Below, one piece after another: positions 8,177 through 64,000 of a stretch of 64,000 nucleotides of DNA. How positions within the stretch are numbered: the first letter of the stretch is position 1; every line of letters begins with the position of its first letter. The stretch is from NCBI GenBank assembly GCA_021776235.1, contig JAJFGG010000014.1, positions 1 to 64,000 on the forward strand, in the 5' to 3' direction. Made by a program: the position numbers and the translations under genes. The notes under the pieces were generated by a model, which was given only the letters and a program-made list of their open reading frames with translations, was not told where the DNA came from and did not search any database. The DNA is from Alphaproteobacteria bacterium. GTDB taxonomy: Bacteria; Pseudomonadota; Alphaproteobacteria; GCA-2731375.

Positions 8177-10291
8177 ATGAATGCCATGACCACGTTTTCC
8201 CGCATCAGTTTTGACCCCGTGCTGCCCTGGTGGCTGCTGGCTACCGTCGCCCTGGCCGCCGCCATTTTGCTGGGTGCGGCTTTCTGGCATCGTTCGGGCG
8301 GCACCACATGGCGCTTGTTGGCCCTGACGGCAGCACTGCTGGCACTGGCCAATCCGTATTTGGTGCGCGAGCAGCGCAACCCCATCCCCGACGTCGCCCT
8401 GGTGGTGGTGGATCAATCCATCTCGCAACGGATTGCCGGGCGCGGCACACGGACAGAGGCCGCGCTGCAACGAATTGAGGAAAAACTGCGCGGCCGGCCC
8501 GATCTGGAAATGCGGGTGGTGCGGGCCGGCCACGGCTTTGGCGGCGATCAACTGCTGCCCGACGGCACCCATCTGTTCGGCGCCATTCGCCGGGCCCTGC
8601 GCGATGTGCCCAACCGCCGGGTCGCCGGGATTATCATTATCAGCGACGGTCAGGTGCATGACCCGCCGAAACCGGATTCCGGCGACGATCTGGGTGGCCC
8701 GGTGCATCTGTTGCTGAGTGGCCAGCGCGGCGAACGCGACCGCCGGCTGGTGGTGGTGAAGGCGCCGAGCTATGGCATTGTCGGCGAAACCCTGCGTCTG
8801 AGCCTGCGGGTGGAAGACAGCGCCGGAGAAAATGGCAACGCGGACAGCAGGGACGCCCGCGGGCGCACCCGGCTGCGGTTGCGGCGGGACGGCGGCACAA
8901 CGGATAGCCGCAGCATTCCCATTGGCGTCAGCCGCAGCTTTCCATTCCGTCTTAACCATGGCGGGGCCACGGTGTTGGAGTTGGAGATCGATCCTGGACC
9001 CGACGAACTGACCCTGAAGAACAACCGCGCGGTGTTGATTATCAACGGGGTGCGGGAGCGCTTGCGGGTTTTGCTGGTGTCCGGTGAACCCCATGCCGGC
9101 GAGCGGACCTGGCGCAACATTCTGAAATCTGATCCATCCGTCGATCTGGTCCATTTCACCATTCTCAGGCCACCCCATAAGCAGGACGGAACGCCGATCA
9201 ACGAGCTTTCCCTGATTGCCTTTCCCACCCGCGAGTTGTTTCAGGACAAGCTTGATGATTTCGATCTGATCATCTTTGACCGCTATCGCCGGCGCGGCGT
9301 GCTGCCGGATATCTATCTGCAGAATGTCGCGCAGTATGTCCGTCGGGGCGGCGCGGTATTGACCGCCGTGGGACCCGATTTTGCCACGCCCATCAGCCTG
9401 TCACGCACGCCCCTGGGAGCAATTCTGCCCAGCCGGCCAACCGGCTCTGTGCGCGAGACCGGTTTTCGTCCTTTGCCAACGGCCAAGGGCCGCCGCCATC
9501 CGGTCACCGCCTCGTTGACCGGGATCGGCGAGACGGGGACGGCGCCTGCCTGGGGCCGCTGGTTCCGACAGATTGATGTTACCGAGGTGAAGGGCGATGT
9601 TCTGTTGCGCGGTGCAGCCCAGGGACCACTGTTGATCACCGCGCGGGTTGATAACGGCCGGGTAGCGCAGTTGCTGTCCGATCACGCCTGGCTCTGGACC
9701 CGTGGCTTTGAAGGTGGCGGGCCGCAGGCGGAGTTGCTGCGCCGCATCGCCCATTGGCTGATGCAGGAGCCGGACCTGGAGGAAGAAGACCTGCGCGCCC
9801 GCGCCAATGGCAATCAGTTGTTGATCCAGCGGCGCAGCCTGACACCGGACAGCGGCGCGGTAGAGGTTGTTACCCCGTCGGGCGAAGTCCGCAGCGTCAC
9901 GCTAAAGGACAATGGCCGGGGCGTGGAGGCCGGCGCCCTGGCGGTAGACGAGCCGGGCCTTTACCGGTTGCATGACGGCAGCCATCAGACGATCGCGGCG
10001 GCCGGGGACATTAATCCCCTGGAATATGCCGACATGCGCACCTCGGCCGTCCCCTTGCAGCCCTTGCTGCAGCAAAGCGGCGGCGGCGAATTCTGGCTGG
10101 TCGACGGCATGCCCGACATCCGCCGGGTGAAGCCGGGCCGCATCAATCGCGGACGCAACTGGCTCGGCCTGCGGGCCAGCGGCGAATACACGGTCAGTGG
10201 CGTCGAACAGACGCCTCTGCTGCCCGCCCTTGCGGTGCTGATCCTGTTCCTAGGCCTGACCATGCTGGCCTGGCAGCGCGAAGGCCGGTAA
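8177..10291 (+). CDS. Large membrane protein of the MoxR operon
   Basis: A 704-residue protein with two N-terminal membrane helices (about residues 15-35 and 42-60) and one at the extreme C-terminus (about 678-698) before a short basic tail. Between them lies a VWA- or amidotransferase-like region: VALVVVDQSIS near 74-84, a strand RRVAGIIIISDGQVHDP near 150-165, and RLRVLLVSGEPHAGERTWRNIL near 295-315. This is the usual fourth member of alphaproteobacterial MoxR/DUF58/DUF4159 operons, often annotated only as a glutamine amidotransferase-like or hypothetical protein. No catalytic cysteine of a true class I amidotransferase is evident, so an enzyme activity should not be assumed. It is convergent with the redox gene that follows. 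Confidence 0.82.
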   Translation: MNAMTTFSRISFDPVLPWWLLATVALAAAILLGAAFWHRSGGTTWRLLALTAALLALANPYLVREQRNPIPDVALVVVDQSISQRIAGRGTRTEAALQRIEEKLRGRPDLEMRVVRAGHGFGGDQLLPDGTHLFGAIRRALRDVPNRRVAGIIIISDGQVHDPPKPDSGDDLGGPVHLLLSGQRGERDRRLVVVKAPSYGIVGETLRLSLRVEDSAGENGNADSRDARGRTRLRLRRDGGTTDSRSIPIGVSRSFPFRLNHGGATVLELEIDPGPDELTLKNNRAVLIINGVRERLRVLLVSGEPHAGERTWRNILKSDPSVDLVHFTILRPPHKQDGTPINELSLIAFPTRELFQDKLDDFDLIIFDRYRRRGVLPDIYLQNVAQYVRRGGAVLTAVGPDFATPISLSRTPLGAILPSRPTGSVRETGFRPLPTAKGRRHPVTASLTGIGETGTAPAWGRWFRQIDVTEVKGDVLLRGAAQGPLLITARVDNGRVAQLLSDHAWLWTRGFEGGGPQAELLRRIAHWLMQEPDLEEEDLRARANGNQLLIQRRSLTPDSGAVEVVTPSGEVRSVTLKDNGRGVEAGALAVDEPGLYRLHDGSHQTIAAAGDINPLEYADMRTSAVPLQPLLQQSGGGEFWLVDGMPDIRRVKPGRINRGRNWLGLRASGEYTVSGVEQTPLLPALAVLILFLGLTMLAWQREGR

Positions 10292-10351
10292 GAATTATTC
10301 AGGTTCGTTAGAGCAATTCGCGGTTATTCTGAACCGGCACAGGTTTATCCC

Positions 10352-11470
10352 CTATTCCGGCATGCCCGCCATGGCCACCGGGGGGTAATAGTAATCATCC
10401 CCCAGGGCATCCACCCGTTCCCAGAAATCAGCTCCGGCCGCCAGACCGGTTTCGTTGGGCTCCGCCGCCTGGCGCCAGATGTTCCACGAAGCCGGGTGCA
10501 GGCGCGCTGCCTCCGCCAGGTGCTCGCGGCCCTCGGCGGCCCGGTCTTGCCGCAACAAATACTGGCCCAGGCGAAAATGGCAATGGGCACGGGCAATATC
10601 GGCGTCGGGTGCCGCGGTCCGGGCGCGGGCCTGATCGGCGCTGAAAACATGGCTGCTTGCCGGCCCCAGCAGGGCCCAGTCCCGGACCGCGTTGACATAG
10701 GTGGCCTTGGCAGCCGCGGCGGTGGCCGTCTTGTCTTCCGGCACGGTCATGGTCGTCCGGTCCAGGGACCGGAAAGCCTCGTAAGCGCCGGCGTTTTCAG
10801 CGGGCCGTATGATACGGCCGTCCTCGTCGATCCATACTGCCTGTGGCACATTGACCATGTTGTATAACTCCGCCACCCGATGATCGCGGTCAATCAGTGC
10901 CGGATAGCTTGGCCCCGCCGCTTCGATCCAGGGGCGGGCAGCATCGTCCCGGCTGTCCATGGCGACGGTGATGATGATGAAATTCTGGTCCTGCAGTTCG
11001 TCGTAGAGTTTTTGCCACACGGACAAATCGTTACGACAGCCTCACCACGAGGCCCAGGTAGCCAGAAGAACCTTTTTGCCGCGATAATCCGACAGGCTAT
11101 GGGCCACACCGGCCAAATCCGGCAGGGTGAAATCCGGTGCCTCCAAAGACCGCAGGCTGGCTGCACGGTTGTCGGCGGCTTCGCCCAAAGCCCAGACATC
11201 GCCGTCCCGGCTACGGGCGGCCGGCATCCCCATATGGTCCCAGAAGGCCTTGAGGTTAACGTTGCCATCGGCCGCGAAGACCCCTTCGCGACCCTTCGGT
11301 ACCGGCACACAGACATCGCCGCGGCATAGCCCTTCAGGCCGCAATGACCACCCTGTCGCCGCCGCCGCCTCGTCGCGATCGAGCCAAAGGCCTTCCCCTT
11401 GACCCGGCCCCGGTCCGGCACGCACCTCAAATTCACCGAAACCGGAAAGTATTGTCGCCGTCGTCGCCAT
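10352..11470 (-). CDS. Candidate redoxin-type selenoprotein with in-frame TGA (Sec143)
   Basis: Two same-frame halves are separated by a single TGA at 11042-11044. Read through, they give a 372-residue protein. Residues 1-142 end in APDFTLPDLAGVAHSLSDYRG, then KKVLLATWASW; the TGA follows, then GCRNDLSVWQKLYDEL and a standard thioredoxin/AhpC-TSA continuation (FIIITVAMDSRD, NVPQAVWIDEDGRII) with a tetratricopeptide-like tail. In homologous redoxins the residue after ATWASW is the reactive cysteine, so the TGA sits exactly where Cys is expected and would encode selenocysteine next to a resolving Cys. A hairpin at the expected distance follows. Alternatives are a recent nonsense mutation or separate translation of the halves (ATG 11470; GTG 11026). 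Against decay, no other stop or frameshift is seen and both halves keep coherent family sequence. Confidence 0.78.
11000..11037 (-). promoter_or_regulatory. Putative bacterial SECIS element
   Basis: The stem-loop lies just downstream of the in-frame UGA (11044-11042), inside the coding sequence. The upper stem is UUUGUC (11027-11022) pairing with GGCAAA (11016-11011): six pairs including one G-U, with a five-base apical loop CGUGU. Below an asymmetric internal loop, GUCGUA (11037-11032) pairs perfectly with UACGAC (11005-11000). The apical loop begins 21 bases after the UGA and has a G in its first two positions, which agrees with what I recall of the bacterial SECIS model recognised by SelB. 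Pairing was done by hand; no folding energy was computed. Confidence 0.6.
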
Positions 11471-51259: not shown

Positions 51260-52288
51260 TTGACCATCCGATCCCATCCGCAAGTGAACACGGAAGCCTG
51301 GGCCGAGAAGGTTCCCATGAACCATGCACCGGACTGGCGCGATGTGACGCAGGAAGAGGTGGCCCGGCGCGGCCGGCGATGGCACCAGGACCCGTTGGAT
51401 CGGCCTTGGTTCGAACGGGAGAACTCCGGCGAAGAGCTTGGCTCATGGCTGGAGCAGGGGCTGATTTCCGCGGCCGAGGAAAAGCTCTTGCGGCAGTGGA
51501 TTTCCGGTGGCTACTTCGTCCTCGAGAACGCCATCATTGACACCGAGTTTGGTCTGCTCGATGAATATGCCCGCGACCTCGACAGCGTCTGGACGGCTGA
51601 AGAGGCGCTGCCCGGCCTGCAGCTGATGAGCGTGCGCATCGACGGCACCAAGCGGGAGCCGATGGACCATGCCGAGCTCTTGAGCCTGCCTCTGGAAAAG
51701 CGGCTGGAGCTCCGCGATTCCCAGTCATGGCGCATCCACTACTACCAGCCGTACACCAACGCCGGTCTGCGACTTGCCAGTGCCGAGAAGCTGATGCGCA
51801 TGTGTTACCTGCTGCTGGGCCAGGATCCGCTGCTGCTCAACATGACCGCCTACAAATACACCAGTATCAGCGACCCTCATCAGGATGTCCTGTTCTATCA
51901 CCTTCACCCTGCAAGCTTCTTCGTGGGTATATGGCTGGCCTGTGAGGATGTCAGCCCCGAGAGCGGCCCGCTCGAGGTCTATCCGGGAAGCCAGCAGACA
52001 GTTCCGATCTGGCCAGGCTTCGACAACTACCCACAGACCAATTACCGCACCGCACACCCCGAGGCGGGGAAGGCGCAGTTCGAGTACGTCTGCGACGCGG
52101 TCTCGAAGATGGAGTCGGTAACACTGCCGATCAAGAAGGGGGACGCCATCTTCACGCACGGACGTCTCGTCCACGGCTCCAGGGGAGTTGAAGAACGCGG
52201 CCCGAAGTCACGCTTTTCGATGGTGCTCCATTATACAATACCGGGAGCCAACAGGATCCACGAGGTCGAGGGTTCCTTCAACTATTAG
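51260..52288 (+). CDS. Phytanoyl-CoA dioxygenase family Fe(II)/2OG oxygenase, copy 1
   Basis: A 342-residue non-heme iron, 2-oxoglutarate-dependent oxygenase. The iron-binding HxD is in SDPHQDVLFYHLHP (His about 207, Asp about 209), the distal His is in HGRLVHGSRG (about 305), and an Arg for 2-oxoglutarate follows in KSRFSM. Because the carboxylate is kept, it is expected to hydroxylate rather than halogenate. The start is TTG 51260 with AAAGGA upstream; the paralog aligns from its own first residues, which supports this start. It is the first of two tandem copies 14 bases apart, next to an NRPS, so a carrier-bound amino acid or a peptide is a likely substrate (inference). Confidence 0.86.
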   Translation: MTIRSHPQVNTEAWAEKVPMNHAPDWRDVTQEEVARRGRRWHQDPLDRPWFERENSGEELGSWLEQGLISAAEEKLLRQWISGGYFVLENAIIDTEFGLLDEYARDLDSVWTAEEALPGLQLMSVRIDGTKREPMDHAELLSLPLEKRLELRDSQSWRIHYYQPYTNAGLRLASAEKLMRMCYLLLGQDPLLLNMTAYKYTSISDPHQDVLFYHLHPASFFVGIWLACEDVSPESGPLEVYPGSQQTVPIWPGFDNYPQTNYRTAHPEAGKAQFEYVCDAVSKMESVTLPIKKGDAIFTHGRLVHGSRGVEERGPKSRFSMVLHYTIPGANRIHEVEGSFNY

Positions 52289-52302: not shown

Positions 52303-53328
52303 ATGAAAATCCTACCCCCACCTGAGGTGGACACTGAAGGCTGGGCTGACGAGGTGCACCAGCACCAGCCGCCGGACTGGAGTGGCGTCTCGCCCGAAGA
52401 AGTCGCCCGGCGCGGCCAGCCGTGGAATCAGGATCCATCCCAGCGGCCCTGGTTCGATCAGGACGGAGCCGCGCAGTCGATCAACTCGCAGCTGACGCAG
52501 AAGCTCATCTCGGCGGATGAGGCACGGTTGATGACACAGTGGGTGCGGGACGGTTACTTCGTCCTCGAGAATGCCATCGACCCCTCGCAGTTCGATTTGC
52601 TCGATGCGTATGCCCGGGAGCTCGATGGGCTCTGGGTCAGTACGGACGAACCCTTGAACATGCAGTTCAGCGGTGTGCGCGTCAATGGCGTACGGCGGGG
52701 GCCGGTCGATCACGCCGAGCTGCTGAGCTGGCCGCTGGAGCTACGCCTCAAGTGCCGTGACACCCAAAGTTGGCGCATTCATTACTATCAATCGTACACG
52801 CAGACCGGCCGCGAGCTCGCCCACGCAGACCGGCTAATGCGGATGTGCAATCTGTTGCTGAAGCAATATCCCGCCCTGCTCAACTTGACCGCGTTCAAAT
52901 ACAGCAGCGAGGTTGGTCATCACCAGGACCTGATGTTCTACCATGTCCATCCTGCCAATCACATGGTGGGCGTGTGGCTGGCGTGCGAGGATGTCCAACC
53001 CGAAGCAGGCCCCCTCGCGGTTTACCCGGGCAGCCACAGAATCCCCATCTGGCCCGGCTTCTCGAACTATCCACAGACGAGCTATCGAACCTGCCACCGC
53101 CAGGGGCATATCGATTTCGAGAACTACCTGATCGATTCGGTCTCGGAAGACAATCGGCTGCGGATGCCGATCAAGAAGGGCGACGCAGTCTTCCTGAACG
53201 GACTTTGCGTCCACGGCGCAGACAAGGCCCAGGCACGTGGCGAGTTGACCCGCTTCTCCATTGTCTTTCACTACACCATCCCCGGGGCGGACAAGAGGCT
53301 CGAAATCGAGGGCCCTTTCAACTACTGA
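52303..53328 (+). CDS. Phytanoyl-CoA dioxygenase family Fe(II)/2OG oxygenase, copy 2
   Basis: A 341-residue paralog of the preceding gene; about half of the residues look identical by eye, throughout the length. The iron ligands are HHQDLMFYHVHP (HxD) and GLCVHGADKAQ (distal His), with TRFSIVFHYTIPGA following. Strong shared blocks are QSWRIHYYQ.YT, WLACEDV.PE.GPL.VYPGS and IWPGF.NYPQT.YRT. Its ATG is 14 bases after the stop of copy 1, so both are one transcript. Tandem duplication followed by divergence suggests two related oxidations on one pathway. It converges on the NRPS gene; the 266-base gap between them has no evident gene. Confidence 0.86.
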   Translation: MKILPPPEVDTEGWADEVHQHQPPDWSGVSPEEVARRGQPWNQDPSQRPWFDQDGAAQSINSQLTQKLISADEARLMTQWVRDGYFVLENAIDPSQFDLLDAYARELDGLWVSTDEPLNMQFSGVRVNGVRRGPVDHAELLSWPLELRLKCRDTQSWRIHYYQSYTQTGRELAHADRLMRMCNLLLKQYPALLNLTAFKYSSEVGHHQDLMFYHVHPANHMVGVWLACEDVQPEAGPLAVYPGSHRIPIWPGFSNYPQTSYRTCHRQGHIDFENYLIDSVSEDNRLRMPIKKGDAVFLNGLCVHGADKAQARGELTRFSIVFHYTIPGADKRLEIEGPFNY

Positions 53329-53594: not shown

Positions 53595-56500
53595 CTAACT
53601 GCCCCCGGCCACGGCGCGCTCGATCTCCCGGGCCAGTTCCCGGGCGAGGCTTTGGACGTGGGGCTCGCTCATCATCGTAATGTGGTCCCCCGGCACCCAG
53701 TGCGTCTGGATCGGGCCCGAGCAGCTGGCGGCCCAGCCCAGCGTATCCTCCTGGATATCCGTCTTCGTGGCCCGGAAGAGCGTGATCGGGACTGCGGAGC
53801 GGGGCGCCCGGTAGGCACGGCGCGCACAGACGTGGGCCTTGCCCACCTGCATCAGGTTGGCGATGAGCGAGATATTCTCGCCTGGCGGGAGCGCGTCGGT
53901 TGCCTGCAGAGCCTCCACCACCTGCTTAATCTGCGCCTCGGCGCCGAGGGGGCGGAGGGCCTCGTAGCGCAGACCGGTAGGGTTGCCGGCGAAGGCCTCG
54001 ATCGCCGCCACCATGTCCATCAGGCGTCGCGTATCGTCGTCTTTCACTTCGCCGTCCTCCGCCGCGCGGAGCGCCGGCGAGACGGTGTCAAGAATGGCGA
54101 GCAGGGGGACTTCCTCGCCCGCCTCGGTCAGCTGACGCGCCATCTCGTAGGCAACGGCGCCGCCCAGCGAGTGCCCCGCGAGGAGGTAGGGGCCCTCGGG
54201 CTGAAACGCTCGGATCTCGGCGACATAGTCCGCCGCCATGGTTTCCAGGTCGTCGTGGGGCGGCTCGACACCGTCGATGCCTCGCGCGGCGAGGCCGTGG
54301 ATCGGTACCGGCGCGGCAAGGTGACGGACGAGGGGGCTGTAGTTCCAGAGCATCCCGCCGCCGGGATGCACAAGGAAGAGCGCGAGCCGGTGCGGGGCGT
54401 TCCAGAGGGGGACGAGGCGCCGCTCTGAGTGCGCCTGGCTCCTGGCGACGGCAGCCAGGTGCTCCACCGTTGGACGCTCGAAGAGTGCGGGCAGCGGCAG
54501 GGACTGTCCGAGCAGCTGCTTGACGTTGACCAGTAGCCGAAGCGCCATCAGGGAGTGGCCGCCCAAGTCGAAGAAGTTGTCGGTCACACCGATCGGCCGG
54601 ACATCCAGCAACTCCTCCCAAACCCGCACCAACTGGAGCTCCATGCCGTCGCGCGGCGCGATGTACTGGCTTTTCAGCTCAGGACGGGCGCCGCTTGGCA
54701 CGGGGAGGCGCGAACGGTCAAGCTTGTGGTTGGCGTCCAGCGGCAGCTGGTCCATGAATTCGAAAGTCGACGGGACCATCGCTCCGGGCAGCCGCGGCCG
54801 GAGATACTCTCGGAGCCGGCCGGCATGGGCCGGATAGCCCTCGACCGAGACGACGTAGGCAACCAGCGCGACGGTCCCGGCAACCGCCTCCTGGGCCACG
54901 ACGGCGCAAGCCGAGACCGCGTCGCAGGCCTGGAGCGCAGCGCTGACCTCCGTCGGCTCGACCCGGATTCCCGCAATCTTCACCTGGTGGTCGAGCCGGC
55001 CACGGAACTCCAACATCCCGTTCGCCATGATCACGCCGCGGTCGCCGGTCAAGTAGAGCAGATCGTCCGCGTCCTCTGTGCCGGGGTTCTGGACGAAGCG
55101 GCGGGCCTGCTCCTCGGGCGCGTTGATGTAGCCGAGGCTCCGGTACGGCGTCCGCAGCGCGATCTCGCCGGGTTCGCCGATGCCGCACTGACGCATGTCG
55201 GGCCGCAAAACCAGTGCCTGGGCCTGGCGCATGGGCCGTCCAAGGGGTTGAACGCCAGAGCGGGGATGCTCCGGGACCTCGTAGGCGCATTTGGCCAGTG
55301 TCGTCTCGGTCGGTCCGTAAAGGTTGACGATGGCGGCCGAGGGCGGCAGCACGCGGCGCAGGCCCTGGACGAGCGAGGCCGTCAGGGCTTCCCCGGCGCA
55401 GAAAATGCAGACGATTGAAGCGACACAAAAATCCTCCGCAGGATCCTGCAGCCAGGTCTGCAAGACAGAAGGCACCACGTGCAGATGCGTGATGCGGGCC
55501 TCGTGGAGCCAGGGGAGCACCTGCCCGCCAGAGAGCGCGTCCACCCCCTCGGGGAGCACCAGCGTCGCACCGGAGCTGAGCGGCAGAAAGATGTCGCGGA
55601 GGACGACATCGAAGGAGATGCCCACGAACTGGGCACAGCGATGGCCTGGGCCGACACCGAAGGTCTCGCGCTGCCAGGCGAGAAAGTGCGCCAGGCCGCC
55701 GTGATTGCCGAGCACGCCTTTTGGAGTCCCGGTGCTCCCCGAGGTGAAGAACACGTAGGCGGGCAAGGTTACGTCCGCAGGCGGCGCGGGGTGCTCTTCG
55801 AGCCAGAGCCGCAGTTCACAGACTTGCGCCTCATCAGCGACCTCGCCCAGTAGGCCGACGCTTATCCGCTGCAGCGGGCCCAGTTCCGGCGCCTCGCCGA
55901 CGTGGAGGAGCCAGCGCGCGCCGGCCTCGCGGACCATGGTGGTGCGGCGCTGTTCCGGCAGATCGGTGCTCAGGGTCAAGAGCACGCCGCCGGCCAGCAA
56001 TACGCCGGCCATGGCCATCACCACACCGGGGGAGCGCGGCCCGGACACGGCCACGACCTGCCCCGGCTCGAAGCCCTGGGCGGCCAATGCCTGGGCAATG
56101 CCCACCATCCTTCGCCCGAACTCGCTGTAGCTGGCGCTCCAAGCACCGTACTCGAGCGCGGTGTCTTGTGGCCGCACGGCAATCTGCTGTGCAATGCACT
56201 CCACCACCGACGGTACCGGGACCCGCGGGATGGTCACGGTGGGATCGCTAAGCAGCGCGCGCGAGATTGGTGTGACCAGATCCAGCTCGGCGATCCGCAG
56301 CCCGGGGTCCGCCACCACCTGGGCTAAGACACTGTCGAACTGCTCGATGAAGACCTCCATCAACCCGGTCGAATAGCGGCTCCGATGGTAGAGCAGCTCG
56401 AGATCGAGGCCATCGCCCCGCTCGGTGACATAGAGCTCGAGCGAGAACTGCGCGCCCGAGGTCGGCGGCGCCTCGTAGGTTGCCCGGAGGTTGGGGAGAT

Positions 56501-57926
56501 CGAGGGTTCGGATCGGCTTGGGCGTGAAGTTAAAGAAGGTGCCGAAGAGGGGGTGGCGTGAGGCGCTGCGCTCCGGGACGAGCTCCTGAACCACCCGCTC
56601 GAAGGGGATGTCCATATGCTCCAGGCCGTCGAGCACAGTGCGCCGCACATCGGCGATCGCATCGTAGAAGCACAGGTCCCCGGGCAGATGAGCGCGTAGC
56701 GCCAGTGTGTTCAGGAAGAGACTTACAATGCCCTCGGTCTCCACCCGCTGGCGATTGCTGACCGGCGTGCCCACCAGGATATCCTCGCGTGCCGTCAAGC
56801 GCGCCAGCAGCGCCATGAAGGCGCAGAGCAGTGTCGTGAACAAGGTGGTGTCGTAGCGGCGGCTGAGCTCCTCAAGGCCCCGCTTCCGTTCCGGGCCCAG
56901 TGACCGGACGATCGTGGCGCCGTCGAGGGTGCGCTCGCTGAGGGGGCCATCCGGCACCTCGAGGTCACCAGGGAGCTCGAGCACCGGCGGCGGGTCCGCC
57001 AGCTTTTCCCGCCAGTAGGCCAGGCCGGACTCCATGGCGCCTTGGCTCTCGGTGGCGCGCTGCCAAGCGGCGAAGTCGCTGTAGCGGATCGGAAGCTCTG
57101 GAAGCTCGGCGCTGCGTCCCTCGACGTGAGCGCTGTAGAAAGCTCCGAGCTCGCGCAGCACCAGCCCGATGGACCAGCCGTCCGAGGACATGTGGTGCAT
57201 GGACACCACCAACAGATGCTCCTGGTCGGCAAGCTGGATCAGGACCACACGGAGCAGTAGGTCCCGCTCGAGGTCAAAGCCCGTTTGGTTCTCGCCGGCG
57301 TAGAGGCGGGTCAGCTCGGTCTCGCGTTGCGCCGGATCGAGCGAGCGCAGGTCATGGCGGACGATGGGGACGGAGCGCGGCGGGTGGACGAACTGCACCG
57401 GGCCGTCGGCGGACTCGGAGAAGGTCGCGCGTAGCGTCTCGTGGCGCAGCAGCAATTCATCGAAGCTTTTTTCCAGAGCGTCGACTACGAGCCGGCCCTT
57501 CAGCCGGAGCGCTCCTGAGATATTGAGCGCAGGGTCCCCCGGAGCCAGGCGGTCGGCAAACCACAGCCGCTCCTGGGCGAAGGAAAGCGGAACGCTGCCT
57601 TCAGCCTCCCGCGGGACGCGTACGAGGCTGGGTGCGGCCGCCTCTTTGGACTTGTTCTGAAGCAGGCGCTGGAGAAGGAGGTCCCGTTGCGCCGGGCTCA
57701 GGTCACGGAGTCGGCTCTTGGCGTCCTTTCCCGCGGCTTTCGCAAGCGCCTTCAGGCTCTCCTTGCTCGAGCGTTTGCCATCAGTCATCCGGACCGCCCG
57801 CTCCTTGTCCTTGCTGCCAAACTGCATGTCCGCGAGGAGACGGCCCGGTGTGGTCGATGGGTCAGGCCGGGGCACGGAAGAGTGCAACTTGAGCGCGATT
57901 TTATTGCGCCCCATGAGGGCTGTCAA
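53595..57926 (-). CDS. Nonribosomal peptide synthetase, single module C-A-PCP-TE
   Basis: A 1443-residue enzyme. The condensation domain (about 110-550) carries HHMSSDG at 244-250. The adenylation domain (about 570-1060) has FFTSGSTGTPKG, NLYGPTETT, LYLTGDRG and NHKLDR. The carrier domain (about 1085-1155) has the Ser in FFDLGGHSLMALRL. The thioesterase (about 1175-1430) has GHSLGGAVAYE. The longest frame starts with TTG 57926; ATG 57914 or ATG 57788 (AAGGAG upstream) are likelier starts. A lone module beginning with a C domain needs a donor acyl or aminoacyl carrier from elsewhere; the stand-alone carrier protein at 63201 is one candidate. By eye the specificity residues read D-V-R-H-F-A-L-L-A-K, which I cannot assign. 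Confidence 0.92.
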   Translation of the reverse strand: MTALMGRNKIALKLHSSVPRPDPSTTPGRLLADMQFGSKDKERAVRMTDGKRSSKESLKALAKAAGKDAKSRLRDLSPAQRDLLLQRLLQNKSKEAAAPSLVRVPREAEGSVPLSFAQERLWFADRLAPGDPALNISGALRLKGRLVVDALEKSFDELLLRHETLRATFSESADGPVQFVHPPRSVPIVRHDLRSLDPAQRETELTRLYAGENQTGFDLERDLLLRVVLIQLADQEHLLVVSMHHMSSDGWSIGLVLRELGAFYSAHVEGRSAELPELPIRYSDFAAWQRATESQGAMESGLAYWREKLADPPPVLELPGDLEVPDGPLSERTLDGATIVRSLGPERKRGLEELSRRYDTTLFTTLLCAFMALLARLTAREDILVGTPVSNRQRVETEGIVSLFLNTLALRAHLPGDLCFYDAIADVRRTVLDGLEHMDIPFERVVQELVPERSASRHPLFGTFFNFTPKPIRTLDLPNLRATYEAPPTSGAQFSLELYVTERGDGLDLELLYHRSRYSTGLMEVFIEQFDSVLAQVVADPGLRIAELDLVTPISRALLSDPTVTIPRVPVPSVVECIAQQIAVRPQDTALEYGAWSASYSEFGRRMVGIAQALAAQGFEPGQVVAVSGPRSPGVVMAMAGVLLAGGVLLTLSTDLPEQRRTTMVREAGARWLLHVGEAPELGPLQRISVGLLGEVADEAQVCELRLWLEEHPAPPADVTLPAYVFFTSGSTGTPKGVLGNHGGLAHFLAWQRETFGVGPGHRCAQFVGISFDVVLRDIFLPLSSGATLVLPEGVDALSGGQVLPWLHEARITHLHVVPSVLQTWLQDPAEDFCVASIVCIFCAGEALTASLVQGLRRVLPPSAAIVNLYGPTETTLAKCAYEVPEHPRSGVQPLGRPMRQAQALVLRPDMRQCGIGEPGEIALRTPYRSLGYINAPEEQARRFVQNPGTEDADDLLYLTGDRGVIMANGMLEFRGRLDHQVKIAGIRVEPTEVSAALQACDAVSACAVVAQEAVAGTVALVAYVVSVEGYPAHAGRLREYLRPRLPGAMVPSTFEFMDQLPLDANHKLDRSRLPVPSGARPELKSQYIAPRDGMELQLVRVWEELLDVRPIGVTDNFFDLGGHSLMALRLLVNVKQLLGQSLPLPALFERPTVEHLAAVARSQAHSERRLVPLWNAPHRLALFLVHPGGGMLWNYSPLVRHLAAPVPIHGLAARGIDGVEPPHDDLETMAADYVAEIRAFQPEGPYLLAGHSLGGAVAYEMARQLTEAGEEVPLLAILDTVSPALRAAEDGEVKDDDTRRLMDMVAAIEAFAGNPTGLRYEALRPLGAEAQIKQVVEALQATDALPPGENISLIANLMQVGKAHVCARRAYRAPRSAVPITLFRATKTDIQEDTLGWAASCSGPIQTHWVPGDHITMMSEPHVQSLARELAREIERAVAGGS

Positions 57927-58219
57927 TGCGAGCGGGACGACATTGGCAGGACGACGGACACGTCAATCGAATGAGTTACAGAACAGGCAAGTGTCAATTC
58001 TGCGGGGCAGGCGCCTGACCATCCGCGCCAAGTCCGCCGGGCGAGAACATTGCGCGGTTGATCCTGGACGGCACCCGGCTCGCGCTGTGCCTTGACAGGC
58101 AGGCAATAGCAATTCCGCTTTTAGTGGTACTTGGGAACCGTCTTCCCCTTTTGTTTGAATAGCCATTGAATTTAGCTACTATAGCAACATAAAATTTCCA
58201 CCAATAAGTGGACACGGCC

Positions 58220-59911
58220 ATGAGGAATATCATCCTTCTGTCACTGGCGTTTGGCTTGGCGCTGACACAGAGTAGCGAAAGCAAGCATCGTTCCCCGGCC
58301 ACCACCCCGCGTCTGGTCGTTCAAATCATAGTCGACCAACTGGCGGCCTCTATCTTGACGCGTCAGGCCGATCGCTTCATGGCGGGCGGCTTCAATCGCC
58401 TGATGAAAGGCGGAGCCTGGTTCCCCAAGGTTCGCCTCTCCCACGCGCACACCGAGACCGTCGTGGGCCACAGCACGCTGGTCACGGGCGCCTATCCGTC
58501 GAGTCACGGTATGATCGGAAACTCCTGGTACTCATTGGGCGCACGCGGCAATCTCAAGGCCTTCGAATCCGGTGCCAAACAGCTTTGCGGTCGCGATGCG
58601 AGTGGATACTCGCCCGAGCAGCTTGCGGTCGCCACCATCGGCGACAACCTGCACGAGGCCAGCAAAGGAAGGGCCAAGGTCTTCTCCATTTCCGGCAAGG
58701 CCCGCTCCGGGGTAGCGATGGGCGGAAAAAAGGGCAAGGCCTTCTGGTACGACGGGGAAGCCAAGGGCTTCGTGACGAGCGATTACTATTTTAGGGATTG
58801 TCCTGCCTGGGTCGTGACTTGGCACGCCCGGGATTCGGAGGTGCCGATCATCGACCGCTATCAGGGCCAGCAGTGGAAACTTTCCCGCAGCCCGACAGCC
58901 GCCAACTACAGCTTCGACGGCGGCAACCAGTTCGAGGAAAACAGCCAGGCTGAATTCAACATGATGATGTTGGACAACATGAAATTCGGGCGGACCTTCC
59001 CCCACGAGTACGGCACCGGCACAGCGTACTACAGATTTCTCACTGGCGCGCCGGGGATGGACGAGCTCATCGCCGACTTCGCCCTCGAAATTATCCGTGA
59101 GGAAAGCCTCGGCCAGGACGAGGTGCCCGACTACCTTGGCATCAGCTTCTCAGCCAATGACGCCGTGCTGCACAACTTCGGCCCCGCGACCCGGGAGAGC
59201 GAGGATGTCATCTTCCGGCTTGACCGGACGTTGGCGCGCCTCCTTACGGCCCTGGACGAGATGCTCGGAATGGACAACGTCCTGATCGTGATCAGTAGCG
59301 ACCACGGTGGCCCCGAGTATCCGGTGGTCAGCCGCACCCGAGACGGTTTCCAGGCGCAGTGGATCCCCAAGGGCGCAACCAAGAAGGCGGTTGAGGCCGC
59401 CCTTCATGCAATGATATGGCCTCGTGCGCTGGTTGCGAGCTACAATCAGCCCTACGTTTACCTCGACCCCGCATGGATCAAGAGACTGACGCTCGATCAA
59501 GACGAGGTGCTCGACGTCATCGAGGAAGCAGTCAGGGGCATTCGGGGCGTTAAAACCGTCGTCCGGACGGCGGATCGCAGCGGGAACTCCGGCGACGCCC
59601 TTACTCTCCGTATCCTCCGAAACCAGTATCCCGGGCGTTCCGGCGACCTCTATGTTGTGCGGAACCAGTACTGGCAGCAGAAGAGCAGCCCCTTTGGGGC
59701 CTTCGACCTGCTTCAGCACGGCTCACCGTGGGACTACGACTCCTTCGTACCGCTTGGCTTTTTCGGGCCAGGGGTGTCGGTCGGCGTTTACGACCGCGAG
59801 GGCGTGCGCAACGTCGACGTACTCCCCACGCTTGCCGACTTCCTCCATACCACGCCCGGCGGGAAGGTCGCCGGAACCAAGCTGCCGGAGGTCTTCGCAA
59901 ATCGCCCGTGA
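58220..59911 (+). CDS. Alkaline phosphatase superfamily protein, PafA-like
   Basis: A 563-residue secreted phosphatase or phosphodiesterase. A signal peptide is present (IILLSLAFGLALTQSSES). The first metal-binding Asp is in VVQIIVDQLAAS (about 39). The Thr nucleophile region is HAHTETVVGHSTLVTGAYPSSHGMIGNSWY, as in PafA-type enzymes. Later metal ligands lie in GISFSANDAVLHNFGP and VLIVISSDHGGPEYP. The GTG at 58208 is an alternative start. It lies between the divergent NRPS and the convergent TauD gene and is codirectional with neither. A role in removing a phosphate from an exported pathway product would fit, but ordinary phosphate scavenging is equally possible. Confidence 0.85.
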   Translation: MRNIILLSLAFGLALTQSSESKHRSPATTPRLVVQIIVDQLAASILTRQADRFMAGGFNRLMKGGAWFPKVRLSHAHTETVVGHSTLVTGAYPSSHGMIGNSWYSLGARGNLKAFESGAKQLCGRDASGYSPEQLAVATIGDNLHEASKGRAKVFSISGKARSGVAMGGKKGKAFWYDGEAKGFVTSDYYFRDCPAWVVTWHARDSEVPIIDRYQGQQWKLSRSPTAANYSFDGGNQFEENSQAEFNMMMLDNMKFGRTFPHEYGTGTAYYRFLTGAPGMDELIADFALEIIREESLGQDEVPDYLGISFSANDAVLHNFGPATRESEDVIFRLDRTLARLLTALDEMLGMDNVLIVISSDHGGPEYPVVSRTRDGFQAQWIPKGATKKAVEAALHAMIWPRALVASYNQPYVYLDPAWIKRLTLDQDEVLDVIEEAVRGIRGVKTVVRTADRSGNSGDALTLRILRNQYPGRSGDLYVVRNQYWQQKSSPFGAFDLLQHGSPWDYDSFVPLGFFGPGVSVGVYDREGVRNVDVLPTLADFLHTTPGGKVAGTKLPEVFANRP

Positions 59912-59954: not shown

Positions 59955-60899
59955 TCAACCCATCGCCACACGCACTATGCGCTCGCCCGTGTAGGCCCGT
60001 CTCCCGTGCGCGGCGTAATAGTTGTCAATGACCAGGACGTCGCCGGCTTCCCACGGGAAGGCAACCGCGGCCTCCCACATCACTTCGCGGATGTGGTTCA
60101 GGTCTTCAGGCGCGATGGGCGAGCCGTCACCGTGGACGGCGTTGAGCGGGTAGTCCTTCTCGTCAAGAAGCGTCGACAGCGCCATCCGGGTGTCCTCGTC
60201 CAGGTTCGTCGGGTGCCACTGGTCGGCCTGGTTGAACCAGACCCGCTCTCCCGTGAAGGGATGCTTGCGCACTGCCGGACGGCATTGTTCTGTGCGCAGG
60301 TCGCCCGCATCGGACCAGTGCCCGCGCACGCCGCTCCGCGCCAGGTAGGCGTCGACCTCGGCGCGCTCGGTCGTCTCGAAGGTCTCCTGCCAGGAGCGGC
60401 CCAGGCCCGCGCCGCCATGCATGTTCTGGACATAGCGGACGCCGCGCTCCTCAAAGCGCTGCAACACCGCGGAATCGAGCAGCTCGAGGACCCGGCGGCA
60501 ATCGACCAGGGGGGTCTCGCCACCGCTTACCGGTGGGGTGGCGCAGTAGAAAAACAGGCGCTGTGGCGGCGTATGCGCGTAGGACAGTTCGCTGTGCATT
60601 GAGATATCGAACTCGGAAGGATAATTCGTTGCCGTGTATACGGCGGCGCTGGTGTGATCTCGTGGCGAGTTTCCCTCGACGTAGAGCTTCAGCTCCGGGC
60701 TCAAGGCGCGGCAGACGGGTTCGAACTGAGCATCGCTCAGGACGCCAAAATTGCGGTAAAGCAGGGCGCCATGGCGCAGAAGCTTCTCATTGATCCACGC
60801 CGTCTCTTCGGCCAGACGCCTAACCAACGCGCTCGCATCCTCTGCCGGAGCAGCTCGGATCACCAGGGGAAGCGGCACGGCGCCGCGCCCCGGGCTCAC
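59955..60899 (-). CDS. TauD/TfdA-family dioxygenase, SyrP-like
   Basis: A 314-residue Fe(II)/2OG oxygenase. The metal ligands are HSE in FDISMHSELSYAHTPPQRLFF and the distal His in VLVIDNYYAAHGRRAYTGERIVRVAM, which also shows the Arg for 2-oxoglutarate. NQADQWHPTNLDEDTR and the overall layout resemble SyrP-type beta-hydroxylases of carrier-bound amino acids. The GTG start at 60899 overlaps the ligase stop (GTGA), so it is translated with the ligase; the open frame reaches 60974. It is the last gene of the five-gene carrier cassette. A hydroxylated aminoacyl-carrier intermediate is the likely product (inference). Confidence 0.85.
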   Translation of the reverse strand: MSPGRGAVPLPLVIRAAPAEDASALVRRLAEETAWINEKLLRHGALLYRNFGVLSDAQFEPVCRALSPELKLYVEGNSPRDHTSAAVYTATNYPSEFDISMHSELSYAHTPPQRLFFYCATPPVSGGETPLVDCRRVLELLDSAVLQRFEERGVRYVQNMHGGAGLGRSWQETFETTERAEVDAYLARSGVRGHWSDAGDLRTEQCRPAVRKHPFTGERVWFNQADQWHPTNLDEDTRMALSTLLDEKDYPLNAVHGDGSPIAPEDLNHIREVMWEAAVAFPWEAGDVLVIDNYYAAHGRRAYTGERIVRVAMG

Positions 60900-62053
60900 T
60901 CCAGCCCTCGCCGGACGAGTTCGGGCCAGCCGGAAGGGGCGAGGCCCTTCTGGGTCAGGAATCCGTAAACCCAACGCTCCAGGCCGAAGCCCATGCAGGC
61001 GCTTTCCACGCCACTGCCGTCCGTCCTCCGTGTATTATGTATGGCCGTGAAAAAGTCCCGATGCAGGTTGAACGACGAGGCCGCCAGCGCCTCTTGCCGG
61101 TGCGGCAGAGGGAAGAGTAGCTCGTATTTGACCTCGGTCATGCGCTGGTAGACCGCCTTGGACCGGCTCGCGTCCAGGAAGAAGGGATCGTTGGCCAACT
61201 CGATGGCCACGTGCAGGCCGAGTTGCCGGCAGAGCTCGATCACGCGATCCATGACCTCCATCCGGAGCGAGACCAGACGCTCGTTGCTGCCGAAGAAGAC
61301 GATGTCGCGCACGGTGAAGTCCCAACTCCGCGCCAGGGGCCGAAAGCCCCCGGCTTCAAAGCGGAATACATGGTTCTGCATCGTGTAGGTCCGCACTTCC
61401 TCGGGCTCGAGCACGGCGTCTCGGAGCATCCGGTAGCAAGGCATGCAAACGGCAGGAGTGAGAACGTGGCGCGGCTGGCGCAGCTTGCCGGGTAGCTGTT
61501 CCGACAAATAGCCCTCGCGCGCGTCACTTGCCATGGTCTCCAGCACGGGCAGGCTGCCGCGGAGGTGGGAGCAGAAGGTTACGTGCTGCGGGAAATGGTC
61601 GAGGTAGCCGAGTTCCGTGAGGACCTCCAACGGCACCAGCACGGGGTAATGTTGCTCCTCCGCCTGAAAATCCGCCGCGAGGGCCCGGAAGCGGCGCTCG
61701 AACCAGCGGAAAAGGCGCAGCAGATCGCCGCGCAGGACGGTGAGGCCGTCACCCACGGGGTGGAGATCCTGCGACGCGAGGAGATCGGCGTCAATGTCGC
61801 GGATCCGGATCTCTTCGACGGTGTTTTCCAAGTGAATGCTGCGCCGCAGGCGCTTCTGAGTCCGCTTCATGTCCTTGACGAAGGCGGCGATGTCCTCGGC
61901 GGCCTCTACCCGAGCCAGTGTCACTTCGAGCAGTCCGGTGTCCGCGTGGTGCTGCGCTCGGAGCACGTTCTCCGTGTCCACCCGGAGCGCCTCCACGATG
62001 GCCTGAACATCGGCGGCCGCGAGCTCTGCGAGGTCGAAGGTCCGGGTCTCCAT
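60896..62053 (-). CDS. SerRS-like amino acid:[carrier protein] ligase
   Basis: A 385-residue class II aminoacyl-tRNA-synthetase-like enzyme that would activate an amino acid with ATP and load it onto a carrier protein instead of tRNA. Zinc-binding residues of this family are visible: Cys in HVTFCSHLRGS (about 161), Glu in VFRFEAGGFRPL (about 233) and Cys in ESACMGFGLERW (about 353), where GFGLERW is class II motif 3. The tRNA-binding N-terminal arm of true SerRS is absent; instead there are about 90 extra N-terminal residues. ATG 62053 shares its A with the acyl-CoA dehydrogenase TGA. Known enzymes of the family prefer Gly or Ala; substrate choice here is open. The partner is probably the carrier protein at 63201. 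Confidence 0.87.
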   Translation of the reverse strand: METRTFDLAELAAADVQAIVEALRVDTENVLRAQHHADTGLLEVTLARVEAAEDIAAFVKDMKRTQKRLRRSIHLENTVEEIRIRDIDADLLASQDLHPVGDGLTVLRGDLLRLFRWFERRFRALAADFQAEEQHYPVLVPLEVLTELGYLDHFPQHVTFCSHLRGSLPVLETMASDAREGYLSEQLPGKLRQPRHVLTPAVCMPCYRMLRDAVLEPEEVRTYTMQNHVFRFEAGGFRPLARSWDFTVRDIVFFGSNERLVSLRMEVMDRVIELCRQLGLHVAIELANDPFFLDASRSKAVYQRMTEVKYELLFPLPHRQEALAASSFNLHRDFFTAIHNTRRTDGSGVESACMGFGLERWVYGFLTQKGLAPSGWPELVRRGLE

Positions 62054-63204
62054 CACCGCCCCTGGAGTCCGAAGCGAGCGATGGCGCGCTCGACGATCTG
62101 GGTTGTGCCCTCGATAAGCTCCATTATGCGGGCGTCGCGAAAGGCCGTTTCGACCGGCGAGCCGGGGCCCACGCCGCTTGCCCCGTGGACCTGGACGGCG
62201 TCCGCGGCCACCCGGTTCGTCATTGTGGAGGCGAGGTATTTGGCCATGAAGCTCTCTTGCACCGCACTCGGGTCGCGCCGGCCCCGCGCCACCGCAGCAC
62301 TCCAACAGACCAGCCTGGCGGCGTGGACGTCGGTCATCATGCGAGCGAGCAGCCGCTGGATCTGGCCAAACTCGCCGATCGGGCCACCGAACTGCTCGCG
62401 CTGGGCGGCGTGGTGCAGGCTCGCATCCAGGCAGGCCTGGCCGAGCCCGACGCAGCCCCAGGCCAGGTTGTGGCGGCCGTTATCCAGGCCCTCCGCGACA
62501 ACGTGGCTCAGCCCGAAACCCGGTTGTCCCAGCACGCGCTCCGGAGGAACGGCGCAGCGCTCCATGTACAGGGTCGCCAACATATAGCCGCGGCAGCCAA
62601 GGATGCCGAGGATCGGTTCAATTCGCAGGCCCGGCGTATCCCTGGGCAGGATCACCGCCAGCGGCCCCCGCTCGGATTGGGTGAGCATGACAAAGATGTC
62701 CGCGCTCTGCCCACAGGTGATCCATGTCTTGGTACCACTCACCTCCCAGCCGTCCCCCACCGGGACGGCTGTCGTCTGGATGGCCGAGGCATCGCTGCCG
62801 ACTTCGGGCTCGGTGATGGCGAAGGCGGCGATAACTTCACCGGAGCTCAGGCGCTGGCCCCATTCCCCCTTCTGGGCCTGAGTGCCCCAGCGCAATATCG
62901 CACTGCCGCCCATGTGGTGGACGTTGAGCAAGCCTTGTACCGAGGGGCTGGCCCGGCCCAGGGCCTCGTGAATCATCCCGTGCCGGACGGTTGCGCTCAC
63001 GGGATCGGCCTTGGAACCAGGCGTTCCACCAAGTCGCTCCGGGAAGCCGCTGGCGAACAGGCCGGCTTCGCGCATGCGCTCGACCACTTCGCGCGGTATC
63101 TGCTGTTCCTGGTCGATGCGGTGGGCGAAGGGGACGATATGCTCGTCCGCGAAGACCCGCATCGCGGCGGCGTGCTCGGCGTAGGACTCGAGCGCTGGAG
63201 TCAC
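62053..63204 (-). CDS. Acyl-CoA dehydrogenase family protein (FkbI/ZmaI-like role)
   Basis: A 383-residue FAD-dependent dehydrogenase. Family motifs are AFAITEPEVGSDASAIQTTAV (about 128-148), WITCGQSADIFVMLTQ and the C-terminal ARIMELIEGTTQIVERAIARF, where the Glu of IEGT is the usual base in short-chain members. In methoxymalonyl- and aminomalonyl-ACP pathways such an enzyme completes oxidation of the carrier-bound three-carbon unit. It overlaps the carrier-protein gene (ATGA at 63201-63204) and the ligase gene, so it is translated as part of the same unit. An ordinary fatty-acid role is less likely in this setting. Confidence 0.9.
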   Translation of the reverse strand: MTPALESYAEHAAAMRVFADEHIVPFAHRIDQEQQIPREVVERMREAGLFASGFPERLGGTPGSKADPVSATVRHGMIHEALGRASPSVQGLLNVHHMGGSAILRWGTQAQKGEWGQRLSSGEVIAAFAITEPEVGSDASAIQTTAVPVGDGWEVSGTKTWITCGQSADIFVMLTQSERGPLAVILPRDTPGLRIEPILGILGCRGYMLATLYMERCAVPPERVLGQPGFGLSHVVAEGLDNGRHNLAWGCVGLGQACLDASLHHAAQREQFGGPIGEFGQIQRLLARMMTDVHAARLVCWSAAVARGRRDPSAVQESFMAKYLASTMTNRVAADAVQVHGASGVGPGSPVETAFRDARIMELIEGTTQIVERAIARFGLQGR

Positions 63205-63455
63205 GCTTCGCGCTTCCGGCCGACCAGGGCGGTCACGGCGTCGATACTCTGGAAGTTCTCCATTTCCAGATCTTCGGATTCGATCTCGATATCGAACTCG
63301 CGCTCAATGTAGGCCACGAGCTGGATGGCGAACAGGGAGTTGCCGAAGCCGAGGGCGAAGATATTGTCATGGTCGGCCACTTCGCGGCCCTCGAAGGAGC
63401 GCGACATGAAGCCACGGATGCTGGTACGAATGCAGTCGTTCATAATCTTACTCAC
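63201..63455 (-). CDS. Stand-alone acyl/peptidyl carrier protein
   Basis: An 84-residue carrier protein. The phosphopantetheine site is the Ser in ALGFGNSLFAIQLVAYIEREF (about residue 40). The motif is GNSL rather than DSL, which is common in extender-unit and amino acid carriers. Acidic helices flank the site (EREFDIEIESEDLEM). It has a start 15 bases after the dehydrogenase stop and overlaps the acyl-CoA dehydrogenase gene. It is the probable shuttle on which the ligase loads an amino acid and the two dehydrogenases and TauD act. Confidence 0.9.
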   Translation of the reverse strand: MSKIMNDCIRTSIRGFMSRSFEGREVADHDNIFALGFGNSLFAIQLVAYIEREFDIEIESEDLEMENFQSIDAVTALVGRKREA

Positions 63456-63470
63456 TGACTATCCTGAGAA

Positions 63471-64000
63471 TCAGACGCTGTAATCGAAGAATCCCTTGCC
63501 GCTCTTTTTCCCGAATTGGCCCGCATAGACCAAGCGCTTGAGAAGCGGGCAGGCGCGGTACTTAGTGTCATTGAACTCGTCGTACAGGACCTCGAGTGAC
63601 CGCAGGACGGTATCTAAACCGATCAGGTCCGCCGTCTCAAGGGGCCCCATCTTGTGGCCGAAACAGGTCTTGAACAGGCGGTCGACCTCCTGGGCGCCGG
63701 CGACCCCCTCGTGCACCAGGAACATAGCTTCGTTCACCATAAGCATCATTACACGGTTGGTCACGAAGCCCGGCGAGTCCTGGACAACGATGGACTGCCG
63801 TCCGGCCTGTTCCACCAGCGCGCAGGCCGCCGCGATCACCGCGTCTGAGCTTTGCACAGCCCGGATGACCTCCACCATCGGCATGAGCGGGACAGGGTTC
63901 ATGAAGTGCATGCCTACGTAGCGCTCCGGGTGGCTCCCCGCACCAGCGATGCGGGTGATAGGGATGGCCGAGGTGTTGGCCGCGACAGCGACGCCGGGCT
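63471..64000 (-). CDS. 3-hydroxyacyl-CoA dehydrogenase (partial, runs off the window)
   Basis: An open frame of 176 codons from the window edge to the stop at 63471. It includes NTSAIPITRIAGAGSHPERYVGMHFMNPVPLMPMVEVI, then VQDSPGFVTNRVMMLMVNEAM and the C-terminal LGHKMGPLETADLIGLDTVL-like segment and GKKSGKGFFDYSV end, all standard for the 3-hydroxyacyl-CoA dehydrogenase family (FadB C-half, PaaH, Hbd). The NAD-binding GxGxxG part would lie beyond 64000. In zwittermicin- and FK520-like pathways such an enzyme oxidises a carrier-bound seryl or glyceryl group. It is the first visible gene of the cassette. Confidence 0.88.
   Translation of the reverse strand, partial: PGVAVAANTSAIPITRIAGAGSHPERYVGMHFMNPVPLMPMVEVIRAVQSSDAVIAAACALVEQAGRQSIVVQDSPGFVTNRVMMLMVNEAMFLVHEGVAGAQEVDRLFKTCFGHKMGPLETADLIGLDTVLRSLEVLYDEFNDTKYRACPLLKRLVYAGQFGKKSGKGFFDYSV

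Follow-up and report, generated by a model that had tools for sequence, protein, structure and literature searches.

Two kinds of ACP-linked extender-unit cassettes are the closest described systems to the locus studied here. In the zwittermicin and colibactin pathways, aminomalonyl-ACP cassettes convert seryl-ACP to aminomalonyl-ACP (PMC6395733, PMC4207774, PMC5923317), and FkbH-type cassettes bring a 3-hydroxy acyl-ACP to the malonyl level by two successive oxidations (PMC6395733, PMC4207774). ATs that are fed by ACP-linked units have a signature consisting of GYSxG and a hydrophobic RXR site, and GYSxG has been reported for the ATs of ZmaA and ZmaF (PMC4207774). The amino acid:[carrier protein] ligases form a separate background to this work; according to a 2022 review, their biological role is unknown.

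The window analyzed here is a stretch of 64,000 nucleotides, positions 1-64000 of contig C36 (99,166 bases) of a 6.36 Mb draft genome. Its minus strand carries a tight operon of genes coding for a 3-hydroxyacyl-CoA dehydrogenase homologue (HADH), an ACP, an acyl-CoA dehydrogenase homologue (ACAD) and a SerRS-like ligase, with overlaps among the last genes. This is the order claimed in a sequence-only reading of the same DNA, and Pfam assignments and coordinates bear it out for all four genes. The features of the window and of the contig beyond it are as follows.

51260-52288, plus strand: PhyH-family dioxygenase, a possible tailoring enzyme (Pfam PhyH)
52303-53328, plus strand: second PhyH-family dioxygenase, a possible tailoring enzyme (Pfam PhyH)
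53595-57926, minus strand: NRPS C-A-T-TE, the terminal module of the line (Pfam)
59955 to about 60899, minus strand: TauD-family Fe(II)/2-oxoglutarate dioxygenase (Pfam TauD)
60896-62053, minus strand: class II tRNA-synthetase-like amino acid:[carrier protein] ligase; start ATG 62053, alternative GTG 62056
62053-63204, minus strand: ACAD (Pfam Acyl-CoA_dh N, M and C, all three)
63201-63455, minus strand: free-standing ACP (Pfam PP-binding); start GTG 63455 or ATG 63443
63471-64000, minus strand: HADH, C-terminal 175 aa (Pfam 3HCDH_N + 3HCDH); the whole gene, C36:63471-64322, extends beyond the window end
Contig 64544-69301, minus strand: KS-AT-KR-ACP (Pfam)
Contig 69298-73779, minus strand: C-A-MT-T (Pfam)
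Contig 73823-77230, minus strand: C-A-T (Pfam)
Contig about 77.8-83.5 kb, minus strand: KS-AT-DH-KR-ACP (Pfam)
Contig 83509-87114, minus strand: PAL-A-T (Pfam)

A type I phosphodiesterase/nucleotide pyrophosphatase gene (58208-59911) lies on the opposite strand between the TauD and C-A-T-TE genes. Overlapping start and stop codons had been proposed to link the ACP, ACAD, ligase and TauD genes, and direct reading of the sequence confirmed them: the ACP/ACAD overlap is GTGA, the ACAD/ligase junction is TGATG (or GTGA, if the ligase starts at the alternative GTG 62056), and the ligase stop overlaps the TauD start in a further GTGA. The HADH gene has no overlap; it is separated by a 15-nt gap from the ACP gene and by about 220 nt from the upstream PKS gene. 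The phosphopantetheine serine of the ACP is located within GFGNSLFAIQL. The proposed tie of TauD to the other genes stood in part. The gene is operonic, through its GTGA overlap, but does not belong to the core cassette, since in the fetched flanks of six close relatives a TauD homologue was found near just one cassette, that of Acanthopleuribacter (L055). We therefore regard TauD, from gene order and conservation, as an operonic tailoring enzyme outside the core cassette.

We consider it likely that the locus encodes an aminomalonyl-ACP extender-unit cassette whose loader is a tRNA-synthetase-derived ligase that replaces an NRPS adenylation domain. The ligase would activate serine as seryl-AMP and load it onto the free ACP, at the phosphopantetheine. 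The NAD-dependent HADH would then oxidise the seryl hydroxyl to give 2-amino-3-oxopropionyl-ACP, which the FAD-containing ACAD would convert to aminomalonyl-ACP. One elongation would use the aminomalonyl unit, accepted by the AT of the adjoining KS-AT-KR-ACP module, and keto reduction would yield an alpha-amino-beta-hydroxy unit ahead of the final C-A-T-TE module. We infer the serine substrate, both oxidations, the hand-over to the adjoining AT and the product; what the analysis shows is the presence and order of the genes, their coupling and conservation, their phylogeny, and the predicted fold and catalytic motifs. The aminomalonyl assignment, first made from the letters alone, gained ground from conservation in ten genomes, from a clade shared by HADH and ACAD with FkbH cassettes, from the location of the ligase in the FkbH slot and from the upstream PKS module.

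As in the published descriptions of zwittermicin (ZmaG/H/I/J) and colibactin (ClbD-G), the HADH, ACP and ACAD genes adjoin a PKS/NRPS line; the conversion of seryl-ACP to aminomalonyl-ACP would be shared by inference, the comparison being with the literature and not of sequences. Unlike in zwittermicin, the serine-activating adenylation enzyme ZmaJ is replaced here by a class II aaRS-like ligase, and there is no stand-alone AT like ZmaF. Domain annotation of the window and of the stretch beyond it revealed no stand-alone A domain in the cluster, and the ligase occupies the loader slot, in agreement with the earlier proposal that such a ligase had taken the place of the adenylation enzyme. Since a dedicated adenylation enzyme was sought and is absent, the cassette is a variant with a different loader and not a strict ZmaG-J cassette.

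Among proteins of solved structure, sequence comparison relates the ligase only to type 2 (methanogen) SerRS and to the amino acid:[carrier protein] ligase of Bradyrhizobium. It scores 150.8 bits against the NCBIfam equivalog of the latter family (NF005479, cut-off 357) and 131.1 bits against the SerRS type 2 equivalog (cut-off 611). Both scores being below the curated cut-offs, the ligase is a divergent branch and not the rhizobial equivalog. It does have the class II catalytic fold with a Cys-Glu-Cys zinc triad and the motif 2/3 arginines: residues C203, E233 and C353, which we take from known structures to be zinc ligands, and R231 and R360, assigned on the same grounds as the motif 2/3 arginines, show no variation in alignments with 22 and 32 relatives. 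An AlphaFold2 model (mean pLDDT 89) was compared with both solved relatives by VIA-align, which gave Z 31.0 (2.6 A over 310 residues) for 3w3s, the SerRS of M. kandleri, and Z 30.7 (2.2 A over 290 residues) for the glycine ligase 3mf1. The two fold matches are a tie, and a serine pocket is indistinguishable from a glycine pocket by sequence or model; as a single sequence, the ligase scores 101 bits to 3w3s versus 89 to the Gly ligase.

With the Bradyrhizobium/Rhizobium ligases the window's ligase shares the class II core, the zinc ligands, a free ACP partner and the fold match of Z 30.7 given above; unlike them, it has an extra N-terminal region of about 85 residues, identity is about 30%, and the rhizobial ligase loci lack HADH. 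With type 2 SerRS it shares the catalytic core and zinc ligands, but most of the N-terminal tRNA-binding part is missing and an ACP is the partner. The protein is 385 aa long versus about 500 in type 2 SerRS, and the clean structural match begins near residue 65. Because an ordinary SerRS is encoded elsewhere in the genome and hardly any sequence precedes the catalytic core in the relative from Acanthopleuribacter pedis (L055), the ligase is unlikely, judging from these sequences, to charge tRNA. A second ligase homologue in the same genome (C4, L034:6245-8981), 27% identical to the first, adjoins a gene for a DltB-like membrane acyltransferase; the pair is possibly a D-alanylation-like system with an aaRS-like ligase standing in for DltA.

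Serine specificity is thus assigned from pathway logic and not from the ligase pocket: the HADH and ACAD partners make sense of a beta-hydroxy amino acid substrate, serine giving aminomalonyl. Alternatively, the substrate of the ligase may be a different small amino acid (glycine, alanine or threonine), in which case the cassette would have another product, for example 2-amino-3-oxobutyryl-ACP from threonine or a dehydro aminoacyl-ACP formed by PltE-like oxidation. The characterised bacterial relatives are, by their PDB titles, glycine:CP ligases, the fold is equally close to the Gly ligase, and prolyl-ACP dehydrogenase is an ACAD-fold enzyme able to oxidise an aminoacyl-ACP. Glycine and alanine, however, offer HADH no hydroxyl, threonine would give a ketone that is unusable by the aldehyde-to-acid step, HADH and ACAD belong to the extender-unit clade, and most clusters lack a hydratase; we consider a different amino acid improbable. 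In Acanthopleuribacter pedis (L055:10927-12772), a MaoC/MFE-2-type hydratase gene and the TauD homologue follow the ligase gene, and the hydratase could point to another oxidation route.

If aminomalonyl-ACP is made from serine, PKS or NRPS genes are to be sought upstream. Such genes were found: a KS-AT-KR-ACP module is located directly upstream of HADH, within a PKS/NRPS line. The PAL-A-T protein combines an A part of acyl-CoA-ligase type with a PAL part that contains an ASG triad, so the line likely begins with a cinnamoyl-type starter. A-domain codes were read for product prediction, and a secure product was not obtained; the last-module code, DVRHFALLA, is identical in the window's line and in that of Azospirillum. 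The Azospirillum series (L156, a contig shared with L051) matches that of the window in C-A-T, C-A-MT-T, KS-AT-KR-ACP and C-A-T-TE, with 52-60% identity per protein, the KS-AT-KR-ACP modules being 58% identical over their length. Homologues of C-A-T-TE, 48% and 52% identical, adjoin the PKS module in a Myxococcales MAG (L050) and in Azospirillum (L156), respectively, and parts of the same module series are present in the Myxococcales MAG, Methylobacterium crusticola (L053) and Pseudophaeobacter leonis (L054). A family of homologous clusters thereby keeps the upstream PKS module and the cassette together. At first look, within 10 kb, L051, L053 and L054 seemed to be PKS-free; this was overturned by homologous NRPS/PKS modules farther along their contigs.

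The AT of the window's KS-AT-KR-ACP module has GHSIG, not GYSxG, and its RXR site is SSQ, which is non-basic; the homologous ATs of Azospirillum (L156) and Pseudophaeobacter (L161) have GYSIG. In this analysis GYSxG was also present in ATs beside FkbH cassettes. AT motifs were rejected as a proof of aminomalonyl use, since for the window's AT, with GHSIG and SSQ, they do not decide the matter; under the proposed scheme this AT would accept aminomalonyl. Alternatively, aminomalonyl-ACP or the semialdehyde may be made but condensed or released by a route other than the neighbouring AT. GHSIG is typical of malonyl-CoA ATs, and several relatives contain extra genes (of asparagine synthase, PALP and ornithine cyclodeaminase type), as would suit such a route. 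Against it, homologous clusters retain the PKS module alongside the cassette, GYSIG is present in two of their ATs, the RXR site of the window's AT is non-basic, and of just three AT domains in the whole genome two belong to the PKS/NRPS cluster, the third being FabD-sized. We therefore give this route a low probability and retain the adjoining AT as the probable acceptor. In L051, L053 and L054, the extra genes flanking the cassette are of asparagine synthase type, accompanied by genes of PALP type and/or ornithine cyclodeaminase type in a set reminiscent of 2,3-diaminopropionate synthesis, and the aminomalonyl scheme does not explain them.

The HADH, ACP and ACAD components have the features of ACP-linked extender-unit enzymes, both by clade and by ACP signature. 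In HADH and ACAD trees, which included four FkbH cassettes, enzymes of ligase-type and FkbH-type cassettes group together (100/99), and the genome's own beta-oxidation paralogues fall outside. ACPs of the two cassette types have one consensus signature, GFVNSLFAMQLV...EDL..NFRS. The closest plasmid-borne ACADs inspected (Chroococcidiopsis, Streptomyces and Alkalihalophilus) sit in HADH-ACP-ACAD-FkbH cassettes, and in this order the ligase occupies the position of FkbH. The locus thus resembles hydroxymalonyl- and methoxymalonyl-ACP cassettes in gene order, HADH and ACAD clade and ACP signature and differs from them in the loader slot, which holds a ligase here and the HAD-family FkbH there. 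With a ligase and not FkbH in this slot, an amino acid unit is expected instead of a glycerate unit. On the Alkalihalophilus pseudofirmus plasmid NZ_CP117836.1 (L155:6082-11775), a distant ligase homologue, annotated as a hypothetical protein, lies between a BtrH-like gene and an ACP gene and directly precedes an HADH-ACP-ACAD-FkbH cassette, so that ligase and FkbH are found side by side.

It could be argued from this kinship that an FkbH from another locus works with the window's ACP, HADH and ACAD to produce hydroxymalonyl- or methoxymalonyl-ACP and that the ligase serves another carrier protein; FkbH is used by the nearest plasmid cassettes, and the genome does contain one FkbH-family match, on contig C6. 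That match, the sole one in the genome, is outside the cluster, the cassette has no FkbH glyceryl transferase/phosphatase, and no FkbH-type (HAD-IIIC) gene is present among the cluster's annotated ORFs. As, in addition, the ligase is translationally coupled to ACAD and stays with HADH, ACP and ACAD in ten genomes, we judge a distant FkbH very unlikely. The C6 match (C6:10948-11931, L132) is strong and lies inside an 836-aa open frame.

To see how widely the aminomalonyl-type cassette with a ligase occurs, ligase homologues were scanned in about 85,000 species genomes, and the best 80 ligase loci were taken with flanks of up to 10 kb. HADH was found in the flanks of 9 of the 80 loci, each time with ACP and ACAD, and was absent from the fetched flanks of the other 71, some flanks being short; the grouping of these genes is therefore more than chance. 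Six ligases, 49-59% identical to that of the window, all stand in the identical order HADH-ACP-ACAD-ligase: those of the Myxococcales MAG (L050, Myxococcota), Azospirillum sp. 412522 (L051), a Binatia MAG (L052, Binatota), Methylobacterium crusticola (L053), Pseudophaeobacter leonis (L054) and Acanthopleuribacter pedis (L055). Three Actinomycetota loci (L086, L091 and L092) contain all four genes in other orders, with ligases of a separate clade. The survey for the same gene set thus recovered six further genomes and three actinobacteria, and with the window's genome the four genes are kept together in ten genomes and two ligase clades. The cassette could have been taken for a one-off, as the own-phylum relatives drawn first had none, but the species-wide scan found its recurrence. 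The last alternative, a chance neighbourhood of a tRNA synthetase paralogue and normal beta-oxidation enzymes, has generic Pfam and NCBIfam names in its favour and is hardly credible given the placement of HADH and ACAD among extender-unit cassettes, a gene set conserved across phyla, a normal SerRS elsewhere and the near-bare catalytic core of the L055 relative.

The window's ligase and its six close relatives group in a supported clade of the ligase tree (SH-aLRT 99), and the actinobacterial cassette ligases are located elsewhere. Supported branches force at least two changes of cassette label in this quick tree, which has several long branches. Two separate joinings of ligase to cassette would fit this topology best, though one ancient association followed by repeated loss may also account for it. 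Class II ligases have, we think, probably joined HADH-ACP-ACAD cassettes at least twice, in separate clades, as the serine loader for aminomalonyl-ACP.

Several other loci from the scan are worth recording. The ligase homologues L057-L083 form a large group from Chloroflexota, mostly Anaerolineales, and from other phyla, Verrucomicrobiota among them, and no ACP, HADH or ACAD homologues were detected in their fetched flanks. In most rhizobial loci (L107-L129, about 8480-10840), an ACP gene and a weak ACAD-like gene (E about 1e-5 to 1e-7) precede the gene for a ligase of the known type; judging from such gene content, oxidation of aminoacyl-ACP by a flavin dehydrogenase may be more widespread. 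Beside the Nocardia panacis cassette (L086:12127-14155) are genes for a TGT-family protein (queuine tRNA-ribosyltransferase) and an FmrO-like rRNA methyltransferase, perhaps for self-resistance to a ribosome-directed product.

Literature searches of open-licence papers found no pathway in which a class II aaRS-like ligase loads such a cassette, in line with the initial remark of knowing no described pathway with exactly this composition. As far as we could find, the parts are already known and their combination is undescribed. The cassette would give the amino acid:[carrier protein] ligase family a concrete, testable job and, if the assignment is true, its first defined pathway role. It also suggests that unrelated enzyme folds may replace one another as loaders in an ACP-linked extender cassette; if so, FkbH, an adenylation domain and a tRNA-synthetase-like ligase are alternative occupants of the loader slot in one shared cassette. 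The combination of ligase, HADH and ACAD provides a genome-mining handle for backbone-amine polyketides that A-domain-based prediction would miss and, if the scheme holds, points to a family of undescribed PKS/NRPS products. In the organism studied here, the cassette probably starts from serine to make a rare building block that contains nitrogen, for use in an antibiotic-like molecule.
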